From a virus: a stretch of DNA of 38,483 nucleotides. The notes under the pieces were generated by a model. It saw only the letters and a list, made by a program, of their open reading frames with translations. It was not told where the DNA came from and made no database searches. The number at the start of each line of letters is the position of its first letter. Within the stretch, counting starts at the first letter, position 1. The stretch spans positions 1-38,483 of the IMG/VR virus record IMGVR_UViG_3300022693_000980; one strand, 5' to 3'. Both the position numbers and the translations under genes were made by a program. This document shows positions 5,618-11,839 of the stretch, piece after piece.

Positions 5618-6330
5618 AATGGTTTAAGCATGATAGTAATGCAAATAATGACCCGAAATTAAAAAAAGTATTAATGAAGTATGGGGCAGACGGGTACGCG
5701 TTGTACTGGTATTGCCTTGAGTTGATAACCGAGCCTATAGACAAGGCTCATATTACTTTCGAATTAGAGCATGATGCTGAGATATTGGCTAACGAGCTAG
5801 GTATTGACACGCTACGTGTGGAGCAAATAATGAAGTATTTTGTTACTCTTAAATTATTCGAGATTAGTCCAGAAAATAAACAGATTACATGTATGAAGTT
5901 AGCAAAAAGACTTGAGTATTCGGCCGTGAAAAATCCGGCATTGAAAGAAATACAAAATATATTGTCAGAGACAATCCCGGACAATCTCGGACAATCTGTG
6001 CCAGATAAGACTAGATTAGATAAGACTAGATTAGATAAGACTATAAAAGAAGATACAAACCTATTGTTTACGGAATTTTGGTTGTTATATCCACGAAAAG
6101 AAAACGGAAAAAAGGCTGAGATTACTTTCAATCGGTTGTCTGGTAAAAACCAGCTGCTGGCAATTAACGACATTAAGACCAGGTACAAAAATACTGAAAG
6201 AAAGTTTATTCCGCTTCCAACAACTTATCTGAACGGAGAAAGATGGGACGATGAGCTACCAAACAACACTAAACAAACCCAGATACAGAAGACGATCCAT
6301 GCCTTCAAAAAACATCTTGAAGATAGTTGA
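5614..6330 (+). CDS. Replication initiation/organiser protein (DUF4373-type N-terminus)
   Basis: The 238-residue protein begins MKWFKHDSNANNDPKLKKVLMKYGADGYALYWYCLEL, the signature of the Lin1244/DUF4373-like N-terminal domain of phage replication proteins. A polar linker with repeated DKTRL units (about 131-143) leads to a C-terminal domain with FWLLYPRKENGKKAEITFNRL, as in DnaT/replisome-organiser-like proteins that bind the origin and recruit a helicase loader. Its start is coupled to the Cro-like gene and its end overlaps the next gene by about 30 bases, as expected for an initiator-loader pair. Confidence 0.75.
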   Translation: MKWFKHDSNANNDPKLKKVLMKYGADGYALYWYCLELITEPIDKAHITFELEHDAEILANELGIDTLRVEQIMKYFVTLKLFEISPENKQITCMKLAKRLEYSAVKNPALKEIQNILSETIPDNLGQSVPDKTRLDKTRLDKTIKEDTNLLFTEFWLLYPRKENGKKAEITFNRLSGKNQLLAINDIKTRYKNTERKFIPLPTTYLNGERWDDELPNNTKQTQIQKTIHAFKKHLEDS

Positions 6331-7023: not shown

Positions 7024-7158
7024 ATGACAAATAAAGCCGACACAACTTATAGAATTAAGCAACATCAAAAAGGTTTAAAGCAGTTTAAGCGTTGGATAAA
7101 GCCCGGTCTATTCGAGAGAGTTGACAAGTACATTAAAAGAATCAGTAAAGGAGAGTAA
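7024..7158 (+). CDS. Small basic protein, 44 aa
   Basis: The product reads MTNKADTTYRIKQHQKGLKQFKRWIKPGLFERVDKYIKRISKGE. The pattern of a basic start, a K-R-W-I-K-P core and a closing helix recalls short phage proteins of antitoxin-like or RHH-like appearance, but no family is certain. Its last codons (ATCAGTAAAGGAGAG) also supply the ribosome binding site of the next small ORF. A degenerate relative is found at 8922-8993, before the second alanine-repeat gene. Confidence 0.55.
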   Translation: MTNKADTTYRIKQHQKGLKQFKRWIKPGLFERVDKYIKRISKGE

Positions 7159-7159
7159 A

Positions 7160-7249
7160 ATGATCGTTATACGGAAGATAGTTATAAGTCTTATTCTCCT
7201 ACTGAAACGTTTGATAGCGGATACGCAAGTATTTAATATTTCAGGTTAG
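7160..7249 (+). CDS. Small hydrophobic peptide, 29 aa
   Basis: ATG 7160 has an excellent ribosome binding site (AAAGGAG) at good spacing and encodes MIVIRKIVISLILLLKRLIADTQ..., a basic start with one hydrophobic helix. It could be a small membrane peptide. It ends where the 19-base direct repeat begins. Confidence 0.4.
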   Translation: MIVIRKIVISLILLLKRLIADTQVFNISG

Positions 7250-7260
7250 ATAACTAGAGG
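7242..7260 (+). repeat. 19-bp direct repeat, copy 1
   Basis: CAGGTTAGATAACTAGAGG occurs here and again exactly at 8129-8147. Each copy ends in AGAGG close to a start codon, and together they bracket the first alanine-repeat gene. Confidence 0.9.
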
Positions 7261-7269
7261 GAAGTGATA

Positions 7270-8127
7270 ATGATAAACGCATATCATAACAAACAATCTG
7301 TGAAAGACATGTTTATTAATCGCATGTTCGCGCACATGGATGCTGATGAATTAGTTAGAGGGGTTGGTTGGGAAACAAATGGCACATCGAAAGGATGTGC
7401 TGTTGGCTGCACCTTAGATAGCTATGTACATTCTGCTTATGAGTCTGAAATAGGGTTGCCCGAATGGGTGGCTCATCTTGAAGACAGGCTGTTTGAAGGT
7501 GTGAGCTATGAATACTCAAAATATTTTCCACTTAAATTTTTAAAAGTCATTTCTGTCGGCACATCTGAACACGAGTTTGATAAAATCAAAGCTAGGTTTT
7601 TAGTTTTTATTCTTAAGGGAAATATTGATCGTGTTGAGAAATTAGATTTATCATTCGAATTAAACAGTAGGGTTATTGATGCGATTAATAAATGCCTGTC
7701 CGTTCAAGAGCAAGCCTCTATCACAGGTAAAATAGATGAGAGTGCGGAGAGTGCGGCGTGGAGTGCGGCGTGGAGTGCGGCGTGGAGTGCGGCTAGGAGT
7801 GCGGCTAGGAGTGCGGCTAGTGCGGATAGTGCGGCTAGGAGTGCGGCTAGTGCGGCTAGGAGTGCGGCGTGGAGTGAGGCGAGGAGTGCGGAGAGTGCGG
7901 CTAGGAGTGCGGAGAGTGCGGCTATTAGTGCGGCGGAGAGTGCGGCTAGGAGTGCGGAGAGTGCGGCTAGGAGTGCGGAGATTGCGGCTAGGAGTGCGTC
8001 GTGGAGTGCGGAGATTGCTGATAGGAGTGCGGCTATGAGTGCGGCGGAGAGTGCGGCGGAGAGTGCGTATGAAAAATATGCTGATTACTTTATAGAGTTA
8101 TTAAATAATTCCAAAGCGTTTGAGTAA
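7270..8127 (+). CDS. Alanine-repeat protein A (paralogue of 8990-9856)
   Basis: From the ATG at 7270 (GAGG nine bases upstream; a GTG at 7264 is a less likely start) the product is 285 residues. The N-terminal domain (about 1-155) shares MxxAYHN, GT-KGCxVGC, PEWVxxLxDRxxEG and FDxxKxxFLxFxL with the paralogue. Residues about 157-265 are a low-complexity array of four-residue units S-A-A-W/R/E. The end, SAYEKYADYFIELL, is again shared with the paralogue. The array is presumably one long alanine-rich helix or stalk joining two conserved ends; the two close cysteines could bind a metal. Function unknown. GC-rich GCG codons contrast with the surrounding AT-rich DNA. Confidence 0.75.
   Translation: MINAYHNKQSVKDMFINRMFAHMDADELVRGVGWETNGTSKGCAVGCTLDSYVHSAYESEIGLPEWVAHLEDRLFEGVSYEYSKYFPLKFLKVISVGTSEHEFDKIKARFLVFILKGNIDRVEKLDLSFELNSRVIDAINKCLSVQEQASITGKIDESAESAAWSAAWSAAWSAARSAARSAASADSAARSAASAARSAAWSEARSAESAARSAESAAISAAESAARSAESAARSAEIAARSASWSAEIADRSAAMSAAESAAESAYEKYADYFIELLNNSKAFE
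7741..8067 (+). repeat. Tandem 12-bp coding repeat (SAAx units)
   Basis: About 27 imperfect copies of a 12-base unit such as AGTGCGGCTAGG or AGTGCGGCGTGG, with occasional 6- or 9-base slips that keep the frame. Mutations between W, R, E and S codons are single-base changes in the fourth codon, as produced by repeated slippage and unequal exchange. Confidence 0.85.
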
Positions 8128-8128
8128 A

Positions 8129-8147
8129 CAGGTTAGATAACTAGAGG
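8129..8147 (+). repeat. 19-bp direct repeat, copy 2
   Basis: Exact second copy of CAGGTTAGATAACTAGAGG (first at 7242-7260). It follows the stop of the first alanine-repeat gene by one base and supplies the ribosome binding site for the next gene. Confidence 0.9.
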
Positions 8148-8148
8148 T

Positions 8149-8412
8149 ATGACGACAAACCTTATGCTGCCTAAAGTTGTTCCTATATCCCCTCTGCCTG
8201 AATGGTTAGATGCTGAGTTATGGAATGATTTTATAAGCTATAGAAAAGAAATAAAGAAGCCGATGACACCAACGGCTATAAAAAGGATGTTGATGCGATT
8301 AGGGAGACTTGTTGAAGTGGGAGTACATATTCAGACAATGATTGAAAACAGTATAAATAGTGGTAAGTGGTCTAATGTTTATTTTGTAAAAGATGAGAAA
8401 GCAGATGAATAA
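8149..8412 (+). CDS. Phage protein resembling DnaT/replication-protein C-terminal module
   Basis: The 87-residue protein contains LPEWLDAELWNDFISYRKEIKKPMTPTAIKRML, LGRLVEVG and a terminal SINSGKWSNVYF. This LP-W...F..YR.EI.KP.T...L..L..L...G....I..SI..GW..V pattern is well known as the C-terminal module of phage replication proteins and also occurs alone. It probably mediates protein-protein or DNA contact in replication. The AGAGG two bases upstream of the first ATG is very close, so the start could also be the second ATG (MLPKVV, 8164). Confidence 0.65.
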   Translation: MTTNLMLPKVVPISPLPEWLDAELWNDFISYRKEIKKPMTPTAIKRMLMRLGRLVEVGVHIQTMIENSINSGKWSNVYFVKDEKADE

Positions 8413-8911
8413 CGCAACATCAATAAATCAGAACAGTGGTAATTCAGAATACTTCACCCCGATTAATGTCGTCGAAGCCGCAAGGGAAGTGATGGGATGT
8501 ATTGATCTTGATCCTTTCAGTTCAGCAGAAGCGAACAAAAGAATAAAAGCTGCTGCTTACTTCTCAAAAGAAGTTGATGGGCTAAGTAAGTGTTGGTTTG
8601 GCAATGTCTGGATGAACCACCCTTATGGTAGAAAACTCAATAAGGATTGTATCAGGATGTTAATTAAATCTTATTATCACGAGAACATTAGCCAGGCTTG
8701 TTGCATCACCTTCGCCGCAACATCTGAAAAATGGTTTCAGCCTCTTTTATATTTTCCTCAATGCTTCCTGCATCCAAGAACAAATTATTACTTTCCTGAC
8801 GGAACGCTTAAAAAAGGCGTAACTAAAGGGAGTTGTGTGACCTATTTGGGTGACAACATAGATAAATTCATTAAAGTATTTGACGGAAAGTTTGGCAAAG
8901 TAAAGATATGA
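8405..8911 (+). CDS. Phage DNA N6-adenine methyltransferase (Dam, PF05869-type)
   Basis: The protein shows YFTPINVVEAAREVMGCIDLDPFSSAEANKRIKAAAYFS, DGLSKCWFGNVWMNHPYGRKL, matching phage N6-adenine methyltransferases. DLDP is motif I-like. The catalytic motif IV, usually D/N-P-P-Y/F, reads NHPY here, so activity needs checking. The start at 8405 (MNNATS...) overlaps the previous stop; an in-frame ATG at 8393 would add four residues. Such enzymes methylate phage DNA, often to escape host restriction. Length 168 is typical. Confidence 0.8.
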   Translation: MNNATSINQNSGNSEYFTPINVVEAAREVMGCIDLDPFSSAEANKRIKAAAYFSKEVDGLSKCWFGNVWMNHPYGRKLNKDCIRMLIKSYYHENISQACCITFAATSEKWFQPLLYFPQCFLHPRTNYYFPDGTLKKGVTKGSCVTYLGDNIDKFIKVFDGKFGKVKI

Positions 8912-8921
8912 CCGTAAAGGT

Positions 8922-8993
8922 GTGGACAGATGGGTAACGAACTACCGTGTGAACAAGCATATTAAACTAATCAGCAAAGGACAAAAGAAATGA
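8922..8993 (+). pseudogene. Remnant related to the 7024-7158 small gene
   Basis: A frame from GTG 8922 reads VDRWVTNYRVNKHIKLISKGQKK and its TGA overlaps the next ATG. The end (K-x-I-K-x-I-S-K-G) matches the end of the 44-residue protein (KYIKRISKGE), and both lie a short distance upstream of an alanine-repeat gene. It appears to be the worn-down copy left by duplication of the two-gene module. Confidence 0.4.
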
Positions 8994-9856
8994 CAACCGC
9001 ATATCATAACAATCCAGAAGAGAAAAAACGTGCTGTTAAACGCGCCATTCATCACAAAGAGGCTGCCATGTTGATTAGTGGCACATATGGAGAATTTGAT
9101 GGTAAATTCAAAGGCTGTTCTGTTGGCTGTGATGCCTATGATATCACTGGCGCGGTACAAATATCTCCCCACTTGATTACGGCTAAATATTTTGGGTTCC
9201 CTGAATGGGTGGAAAGACTAAGGGATAGAATTTACGAAGGGTTGCCCCAAGCTAAAAAAGATGGTTGGCATGTTTCTTTAAAAAATGCGACCCCTGTCGG
9301 TTTTGACGAGAAAGGATATGAGATGGTAAAAGCTAAGTTCCTTATCTTTGTTTTAAATAGTATTTTAGAGTTGCTTTCCGATAGTCTTTATGAAGAAAAA
9401 AACGATGTTATAAAGCTGGCGAACGAGTCTAAGGCGGTATGGGCTAATTATTTAAAAACAGGCGTTTTAGATCGCGTCGCTGCCGCTACCTCTGCTGCTG
9501 CCGCTTACGCTACCTCTGCCGCTGCAGCTTACGATACCTCTGCCGCTGCCGCTTCCGATGCCGCTTACGCTACCTCTGCCGCTGCAGCTTACGATACCTC
9601 TGCCGCTTCCGATGCCGCTTACGCTACCTCTGTTGCTGCAGCTTACGCTGCCGATGCCGCTTACGCTACCTCTGCCGCTGCAGCTTACGCTGCCGCTTAC
9701 GATACCGCTGCCGATGCCGCTTACGCTACCGCTGCCGCTGCCGCTTACGCTACCGCTGCCGCTTACGCTGCCGATGCCGCTTACGCTGACGATGCCGCTG
9801 CTAAGGCATATGAAAAATATGCAGATCATTTTATTCAACTGCTGACTAATGCATAA
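8990..9856 (+). CDS. Alanine-repeat protein B (paralogue of 7270-8127)
   Basis: The 288-residue product has the same plan as protein A: a conserved N-terminal domain (MTTAYHNNPEEKKRAVKR, GKFKGCSVGC, FPEWVERLRDRIYEGL, GFDEKGYEMVKAKFLIFVL), an alanine-rich array (about 164-272) and the closing AYEKYADHFIQLL. Here the array is built from A-A-A-Y, A-T-S and D-A-A-Y groups written with GCC/GCT codons, unlike the GCG-rich S-A-A-R/W of protein A, so the two arrays expanded independently. A good RBS (AAAGGAC) precedes the ATG. Unknown function. Confidence 0.75.
   Translation: MTTAYHNNPEEKKRAVKRAIHHKEAAMLISGTYGEFDGKFKGCSVGCDAYDITGAVQISPHLITAKYFGFPEWVERLRDRIYEGLPQAKKDGWHVSLKNATPVGFDEKGYEMVKAKFLIFVLNSILELLSDSLYEEKNDVIKLANESKAVWANYLKTGVLDRVAAATSAAAAYATSAAAAYDTSAAAASDAAYATSAAAAYDTSAASDAAYATSVAAAYAADAAYATSAAAAYAAAYDTAADAAYATAAAAAYATAAAYAADAAYADDAAAKAYEKYADHFIQLLTNA
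9479..9804 (+). repeat. Alanine-coding tandem repeat, second array
   Basis: Imperfect repeats built from GCCGCTTACGCTACCTCT-like and GCTGCAGCTTACGATACC-like blocks, arranged as a larger unit that recurs about every 42-60 bases. PstI-type CTGCAG hexamers mark several unit boundaries. The region is GC-rich compared with its flanks. Confidence 0.85.
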
Positions 9857-9941
9857 AGTCGTTTCTATAGCCGCTGCCTCTGCCGGTACCGCTTACGATG
9901 CCGCTGCCGCTGCTAAGGAGTATTTAGAATGTTTTCAATGA
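9849..9941 (+). pseudogene. Remnant of a third alanine-repeat gene
   Basis: An ATG overlapping the stop of protein B opens a frame MHKVVSIAAASAGTAYDAAAAAKEYLECFQ. The DNA again consists of GCCGCTGCC/GCTTACGAT units, and the AAKEYLECF ending recalls the AYEKYADxFI ending of both paralogues. It is therefore either a deleted further copy or the displaced tail of protein B after an internal frame change. Confidence 0.45.
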
Positions 9942-11326: not shown

Positions 11327-11359
11327 AACACATTGGCTTTGTTTTATGAACGAGAAACC

Positions 11360-11839
11360 ATGAAATGGCTAGTTGTACATCTTCGCGCTGACCGGGAATA
11401 CCAAGCTAGAGATGAGTTAGAAAATCACTATCCAGGAAAGGTTTATTTGCCGGAAGTAGAGCGAGATAGACGGCGCAAAGGGAAGAATAAAAGCATTATG
11501 GAGCCGTTATTCCCGGCCTATTTATTTCTAAAGGTAGGGGACGACGAAGATTGGTCGATGGTAACTAAATCACGTAATACTATAAAAATAGTTAAATTTG
11601 GTGATTATGCGCCATGCGTTGATGATAATTTTATTAATGATTTTATGCATTACGATAGAACGATGAAGGTAGATTATGAGAAAGGGGATGCGATATTTAT
11701 CAATAGTGAAGCATTCATAAACGTACCGGCTATAGTAAAATTGCCAGGAAGGGAGAGAATTGGAGTACTAGCGGATATTCTAGGAGTTAAACGTACTTTG
11801 ATGGTTAATAGAACAGAATTAAGCATAGAACCTATATAG
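11360..11839 (+). CDS. NusG/RfaH-family transcription factor (phage antiterminator candidate)
   Basis: From ATG 11360 the 159-residue product starts MKWLVVHLRADREYQARDELE, followed by VYLPEVERDRRRKGKNKSIMEPLFPAYLFLKV, IVKFGDYAPCV and a C-terminal KOW-like segment (KGDAIFINSEAFINVPAIVKLPGRERIGVLADILG). The EPLFPxYLF motif and overall length (RfaH 162) place it with the NusG paralogues RfaH/LoaP. These bind the RNA polymerase clamp and suppress pausing and termination. An upstream TTG start at 11333 is unlikely. Placed at the end of the early genes, before lysis and structural genes, it is a good candidate for an antiterminator of late transcription. Confidence 0.82.
   Translation: MKWLVVHLRADREYQARDELENHYPGKVYLPEVERDRRRKGKNKSIMEPLFPAYLFLKVGDDEDWSMVTKSRNTIKIVKFGDYAPCVDDNFINDFMHYDRTMKVDYEKGDAIFINSEAFINVPAIVKLPGRERIGVLADILGVKRTLMVNRTELSIEPI

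Follow-up and report, generated by a model that had tools for sequence, protein, structure and literature searches.

The closest described counterparts of the proteins considered here are phage proteins with the Imm5_like domain (PF21805, putative immunity protein), which carry the same kind of alanine array followed by a short C-terminal cap, and a set of hypothetical or unannotated proteins from the Xanthomonas phages KPhi1 (K1pha_60), phiXaf18, XapPhi1-6, and BsXeu269p/3. Our subjects are W1 and W2, two proteins encoded by IMG/VR record IMGVR_UViG_3300022693_000980 from an uncultured virus, of which positions 1-38,483 (GC content, 0.40) were analyzed as a single stretch of 38,483 nucleotides, hereafter the window. 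Each comprises an N-terminal head domain, a tandem alanine array written in one of two "dialects" (S in W1 and Y in W2), and a C-terminal cap. This architecture is well supported; the function that we attach to it is offered tentatively.

The resemblance to the Imm5_like proteins is one of modules and not of membership, as their head differs in sequence from that of W1 and W2; about half of the sampled array carriers, among the matches listed, fall in one N-terminal cluster that holds Imm5_like. The Xanthomonas phage proteins have the same head (27-43% identity), and an S-dialect array and a segment at the C terminus are present in the two that we read, from KPhi1 and XapPhi5, but the cap motif has diverged (WIEERDALFASL). 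A third counterpart is the N-terminal domain of S9-family peptidases of Xanthomonadaceae, which is homologous to the whole phage head in profile comparisons but is fused to a beta-propeller/S9 hydrolase and lacks an alanine array. Close packing of alanine-rich helices is a feature of Alacoils and of alanine-rich antifreeze proteins. Silk coiled coils are presented in the same terms in a further source (PMC12284834). We liken the arrays to Alacoil coiled coils, honeybee silk, and alanine-rich helical antifreeze proteins by such packing, not by sequence.

Two divergent members of a widespread phage protein family

Both proteins are encoded by intact open reading frames (ORFs), W1 at 7270-8127 (285 aa, with an in-frame GTG at 7264) and W2 at 8990-9856 (288 aa). 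They share a motif in the N-terminal domain (KGCAVGC in W1 and KGCSVGC in W2) and another at the C terminus (AYEKYADYFIELL and AYEKYADHFIQLL, respectively), and their N-terminal domains, of about 150 aa, are 31% identical (E value, 1.5e-18 with that of W2 as the query). The intervening arrays are true tandem repeats, with Tandem Repeats Finder scores of 335 and 314, and have a GC content of 0.59-0.60 versus 0.37-0.40 for the N-terminal domains. The W1 array uses the codon words AGT GCG GCG TGG, AGT GCG GCT AGG, and AGT GCG GAG, and that of W2 uses the hexamers GCCGCT, TACGCT, ACCTCT, GCAGCT, and TACGAT.

Searches with tblastn recovered 11 Xanthomonas phage records with the W2 head and, with the W1 head, a gene at the end of a Roseomonas plasmid near a Lar-family gene. 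A profile of five heads retrieved at least 127 relatives from IMG/VR viral contigs, 80 of which were kept, and six from species genomes; a few prophages also carry members, one being that of Lysobacter enzymogenes ATCC 29487. The family head profile of about 140 columns, which includes the two window proteins, matches them with E values of 5e-45 and 1e-37. Nearly all of the relatives that we read have a head, then an array, and then a cap; the few exceptions are L074, which lacks both array and cap, a truncated second copy in L064, and distant chromosomal homologs with a nonrepetitive middle. Occurrence in bacterial genomes is patchy: a search of one bacterial family gave 8 positives in 297 genomes, two of them phage type (the seed, G002, and G064) and at least three chromosomal homologs, and a search of one class gave 2 in 385, the seed genome included. 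At 19 of 86 loci, the contig stops within the gene on its 3' side, which is what repeats that interrupt assembly would produce; because a head was required by the search, 5' ends would not give a fair comparison. Weak chromosomal matches in L105, L106, and L109 did not read as a head in the printed orientation and were set aside.

Searching Pfam, NCBIfam, and PHROGs with the window proteins and with 56 heads gave no match over the head; PHROG matches 3416, 18326, and 8332 were rejected as family identities, as they lie mainly on the array and the preceding helix and are partly compositional. A single-sequence scan gave no viral match, and the single match of the head profile in a PDB sequence search was judged to be due to chance. 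Foldseek found no match of the head in PDB at an E value of ≤0.001; VIA-align rows mainly cover residues from 99 onwards, and neither method revealed anything above common helical arrangements. BFVD yielded one uncultured-phage protein without an assigned function (E value, 2.3e-10). The literature searched, which left most subscription papers outside its scope, held no description of the family. Thus, the family is real and widespread, and the libraries tried contain no curated description of it.

In a tree of 56 heads, W2 groups with a Xanthomonas-type clade (100/86), and W1 lies in the other large clade (100/96). An approximately unbiased test on a small set of 105 columns rejects W1 and W2 as sisters (P = 0.019). 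Their placement in different deep clades, together with this rejection, leaves a recent duplication unsupported. Two copies are present in 6 of 90 loci, the window included, and L012 likewise has, as judged by eye, one W1-type and one W2-type copy.

The original prediction, made from the DNA letters of this region, had proposed a duplicated module in a real phage early system, with shared ends around unrelated tandem repeats. The shared ends, the two kinds of repeats, and the reality of a coding family within the early regions of phages are all borne out, and nearly all intact relatives retain both ends and the array, but the term "duplicated" is misleading.

A conserved head with a putative metal-binding or catalytic site

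The heads are under purifying selection and evolve as coding sequence, the ratio of nonsynonymous to synonymous differences per site (pN/pS) being 0.12-0.22 in four informative pairs. Residues H22, C43, C47, P64, L70, D72, E76, and G77 (W1 numbering) are invariant in all 56 aligned heads, and H54 is present in 55 of them; both window copies carry all six polar residues. On Xanthomonadaceae chromosomes, the homologous domain forms the N terminus of a 935-aa S9-type peptidase (L112:2702-5509; also L107, L108, and L110), which aligns with the phage head over 151 columns (probability, 98.1; E value, 6.6e-14) and has Ser in place of both Cys. Such a replacement in a distant homolog is expected of a functional site and not of residues required by the fold. 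The six polar residues may form a site that binds a metal, probably zinc, or is catalytic. Domain scans found the Peptidase_S9 domain only in the chromosomal homolog, and neither W1 nor W2 has it. By our reading, the neighbors of the peptidase gene at L112 are presumably an ABC transporter-like gene, upstream of it, and an aroA-like gene, which comes next on the opposite strand. A further homolog without an array (L111:1393-2160; 255 aa; E value, 4.8e-11) comes from a small, 1.5-Mb genome found in the class search around an alphaproteobacterium.

The array and cap as a predicted helical hairpin

An AlphaFold2 model of W1 built with 60 sequences (mean predicted local distance difference test [pLDDT] score, 88.8; predicted template modeling [pTM] score, 0.78) has helices at residues 157-211 and 217-284. 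The lengths and order of these helices and the confidence of the model point to an antiparallel course that returns the cap to the head, and there is good support for the predicted folding of the W1 array into an antiparallel helical hairpin that has the cap at its end. L032, a natural member with two repeat units, was modeled with a pLDDT of 92.4 and a pTM of 0.86. The commonest S-dialect units are SAAE, SAAR, SAAW, SAE, SAR, and SAW, that is, steps of three or four residues with a mean spacing of 3.63 and a bulky-residue period of 3.66, and their periodicity beats shuffled arrays at a P value of ≤0.01 in 28 of 34 cases. The idea that an even ordering of three- and four-residue units keeps the helix phase was rejected, as the observed order fell below the shuffled median in just 15 of 25 arrays.

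Rapid turnover of the arrays

The arrays change at a different pace from the heads. L073, L075, L076, and L077, whose heads lie within 1 of 400 nucleotides of one another, differ by in-frame array indels of 21 and 9 nucleotides, and L030 and L034, whose heads share 94% identity, are separated by a dozen array indels, every one of which, inside the alignment, is a multiple of 3 in length. The array pN/pS ranges from 0.76 to 7.5 on uncertain array alignments. A single third base dominates the alanine codons in most arrays (median, 0.95), and this purity exceeds the usage of neighboring long ORFs (P < 0.001) in 64 of 68 arrays; the background consisted of three long ORFs at each locus, taken without gene calling, which makes individual P values rough. 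The third codon position is the least variable in 60 of the 68, and Ala codons of Y arrays agree with the Tyr/Asp codons in their third base (r = 0.93). GC content at the third codon positions of the arrays tracks that of the genome, albeit loosely (rho = 0.59), and 18 arrays deviate by more than 0.35. On the head tree, at least 21 changes of the alanine third base are counted across 55 rows, and 8 changes of dialect across 48. The array words AGTGCGGCTAGGAGTGCGG of W1 and GCCGCTTACGCTACCTCTGCCGCT of W2 have no exact match elsewhere in 2.9 million viral contigs, which favors local amplification over transfer. We read the arrays as probably built up locally from a few words that were amplified while selection at the protein level favored an alanine-rich helix. 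Simple derivation from a pure run of GCN triplets was rejected because it leaves AGY serine, and GAG glutamate in GCT arrays, unexplained.

Selection against RNA or single-stranded DNA hairpins in alanine codons might also be invoked for the uniform third bases, and in all cases tested, random synonymous recodings are indeed more structured than the Y-dialect arrays. However, the S-dialect arrays, which are mostly NNG, equal or exceed random recodings in average stability (mean minimum free energy per codon, -1.57 versus -1.46 for recodings), so that hairpin avoidance cannot be the general cause, and we regard this explanation as very improbable. The arrays could also be tolerated slippage products, a low-complexity helix of little function behind a head that alone matters. 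Lengths from about 29 to 212 residues, pN/pS values near 1, the in-frame indels that separate near-identical contigs, and codon words that are nearly uniform are all in keeping with this, as is the existence of a few members without an array. Nevertheless, the array and cap are kept in nearly all intact members, the same two dialects recur in different codon words (with Ser as TCN or AGY), and the S-dialect helical spacing near 3.63 is maintained; these last two observations suggest that the protein-level pattern is selected, and we consider mere slippage unlikely.

Similar arrays behind other phage heads

Arrays were also sampled without reference to the head, through two common words with at least 120 stretches each, so that the proportions that follow are not population frequencies. 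Among the matches listed, 107 array proteins have an intact start and a usable N-terminal part, and 43 of these have the head of W1 and W2. The remainder form a BLAST-linked cluster of 50, clusters of 6, 4, and 3, and one singleton; the cluster of 50, being single linkage and mixing Imm5_like with other-looking types, may exceed one family. Hence, similar arrays are found in phages behind at least four further N-terminal clusters, an observation that is new here, and the stalk is not private to the family of W1 and W2. Six of 12 chosen array carriers pass the PF21805 cutoff, and the same model gave no match to the window proteins and ten relatives even at an E value of ≤10. Imm5_like array carriers include L183, L169, L240, L238, and L246. 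Another array-bearing phage N-terminal domain, with a CxEAAxxYA..HSDxPxCV-type motif, is seen in L256, L274, L192, and L126.

Given that alanine-rich helices pack closely, as in Alacoils, the hairpins could pack side by side as an assembly module, gathering early proteins with different heads into a cluster or fiber. This would accommodate the finding, among the matches listed, of both dialects behind the head of W1 and W2, in the large cluster holding Imm5_like, and in the third, CVEAA-type cluster, as well as the runs of two to four array genes seen at 22 of 252 loci (by a loose screen, in which some shadow frames are counted). Yet most sampled loci have one array gene, and natural members exist with two repeat units (L032) or with no array at all (L074), and we hold such an assembly to be quite improbable. 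At L315, L301, L303, and L343, two to four array genes lie near one another; their N-terminal domains are of other types, and their arrays are all in the Y dialect. A broader and rather speculative view is that the alanine hairpin is a common early-phage module, repeatedly rebuilt behind unrelated heads (at least five N-terminal clusters in the one sample) in two dialects from local words, through which one stalk or coassembly principle would serve different targets.

Possible function of W1 and W2

Genes around the family are early genes, including those for repressors, primase, helicases, RecE/RecT/Bet/Erf, NinB, single-stranded DNA-binding protein (SSB), and in one instance Tad3; no partner gene is constant among the loci, the commonest neighbor family being present in 10 of about 87. 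The patchy occurrence in bacteria, the several divergent copies in one phage, and the conserved polar site are best fitted by a host-directed accessory protein. We tentatively suggest that W1 and W2 are such proteins, encoded in what we propose to be the early region of a tailed phage, in which the head acts and the hairpin is a length-tolerant stalk. The head would act on a host factor, in host takeover or counterdefense, and the hairpin would be a length-tolerant spacer or bulk module because, with both of its ends at the head, added units would merely lengthen it; a cap helix ends the chain. The length and composition of the hairpin drift fast as short units are gained or lost in frame, the head staying conserved, and the arrays would be rebuilt locally from a few codon words, not copied between phages. 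The picture of conserved ends around a freely evolving, length-variable helical stalk, put forward in the original prediction, agrees with these results, and its stalk idea is reasonable, although it is only conceivable that the stalk sets a distance or valency, as it proposed; the "system" that it envisaged finds no counterpart in the varied replication, recombination, and repressor neighbors.

Several points weigh against a host-directed protein with a hairpin stalk. The turn of the W1 hairpin (211-215) has a pLDDT below 50, and the hairpin could be a habit of AlphaFold with alanine-rich sequence. Periodicity is significant in 1 of 23 Y-dialect arrays, so that the helix in this dialect rests on composition, the window protein modeled being W1. 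The array pN/pS near 1 also fits plain relaxed constraint, and no homolog of known function was found in the searches made. Finally, the neighbors are mostly replication and recombination genes, which a role in DNA metabolism fits equally.

A replication or recombination accessory, whose head would bind DNA or a replisome or annealing protein and whose stalk would space or oligomerize it, is a possibility, albeit a doubtful one. Within three genes of family members are found primase, DnaB and Dda-like helicases, RecE/RecT/Bet/Erf, NinB, SSB, DUF2800, and what we take from its sequence to be a DUF2815-like protein, and W1 and W2 themselves flank an O-like replication fragment and a Dam-like methylase downstream of a replication-initiator-like gene (Table 1). 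Against such a role, no single neighbor family is kept across the loci, and nothing points to a DNA-binding surface in the arrays, whose mean charge is near neutral (-2.6 and -5.4 per 100 residues).

Surroundings of W1 and W2 in the window

TABLE 1 Features at and around W1 and W2 (window coordinates)
Feature	Position	Strand	Remarks
Replication-initiator-like gene (Lin1244_N, PHROG 270)	5614		Upstream of W1
19-bp direct repeat, copy 1, CAGGTTAGATAACTAGAGG	7242..7260	+	Just before W1; stop of preceding frame and leader with Shine-Dalgarno-like AGAGG
W1 head, residues 1-155	7270..7734	+	H22, C43, C47, H54, D72, E76 (invariant or near-invariant polar residues of the family)
W1 alanine array, S dialect	7738..8064	+	SAA[W/R/E] and SA[W/R/E] units
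W1 C-terminal cap, AYEKYADYFIELLNNSKAFE	8065..8124	+	
19-bp direct repeat, copy 2	8129..8147	+	Just after W1, before ORF at 8149
O-like replication fragment (PHROG 678)	8149		Between W1 and W2
Dam-like methylase	8393		Between W1 and W2
Remnant resembling end of small ORF 7024-7158 and bases after it	8952..8993	+	Just before W2; local alignment
W2 head, residues 1-161	8990..9472	+	H22, C43, C47, H61, D79, E83
W2 alanine array, Y dialect (A-A-Y-A-A-D)	9476..9805	+	Hexamers; third bases mostly alternating (NNC NNT)
W2 C-terminal cap, AYEKYADHFIQLLTNA	9806..9853	+	
30-codon stub, third array end with broken cap	9849..9941	+	Overlaps W2 end

The left of the window is an early-type region, and the right holds a terminase gene, for which relatives were found, and other structural-type genes. 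An exact 19-bp direct repeat, missed in the original prediction, flanks W1 on both sides; it has two copies in the window, with none expected by chance (100 shuffles), and gives a leader to both W1 and the ORF that follows. As recombination between the copies would cleanly excise W1, the repeat suggests, short of proof, that W1 is a gene cassette. The third stub noted earlier after W2 is indeed an array end, 61 nucleotides of which match the end of the W2 array (9758-9818) at 79%. Of the decayed copy of the preceding small gene that had been placed at 8922-8993, what stands is a 41-nucleotide remnant at 8952-8993, similar to 7124-7163 with a score of 43 versus a shuffled maximum of 34 (300 shuffles), and the prediction is right in part. 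The replication-initiator-like gene holds a perfect 15-bp tandem repeat of 2.7 copies at 6003-6043. Downstream of W2, the ORF at 11333-11839 reads by eye like what we presume to be a NusG-type transcription factor, possibly a phage antiterminator.

Implications

W1 and W2 exemplify a frequent kind of early phage protein whose conserved head has neither a name nor a model in Pfam, PHROGs, or NCBIfam. With a head that is conserved and a stalk that changes unit by unit, the family provides a test case for the tolerance of proteins to fast-changing repeats. Its arrays reverse the pattern of ordinary genes, in that the positions that change amino acids vary and the silent third bases are nearly uniform. 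If the arrays behind Imm5_like and the other heads share one purpose, a single result would inform many phage genes, many of which are perhaps host directed.

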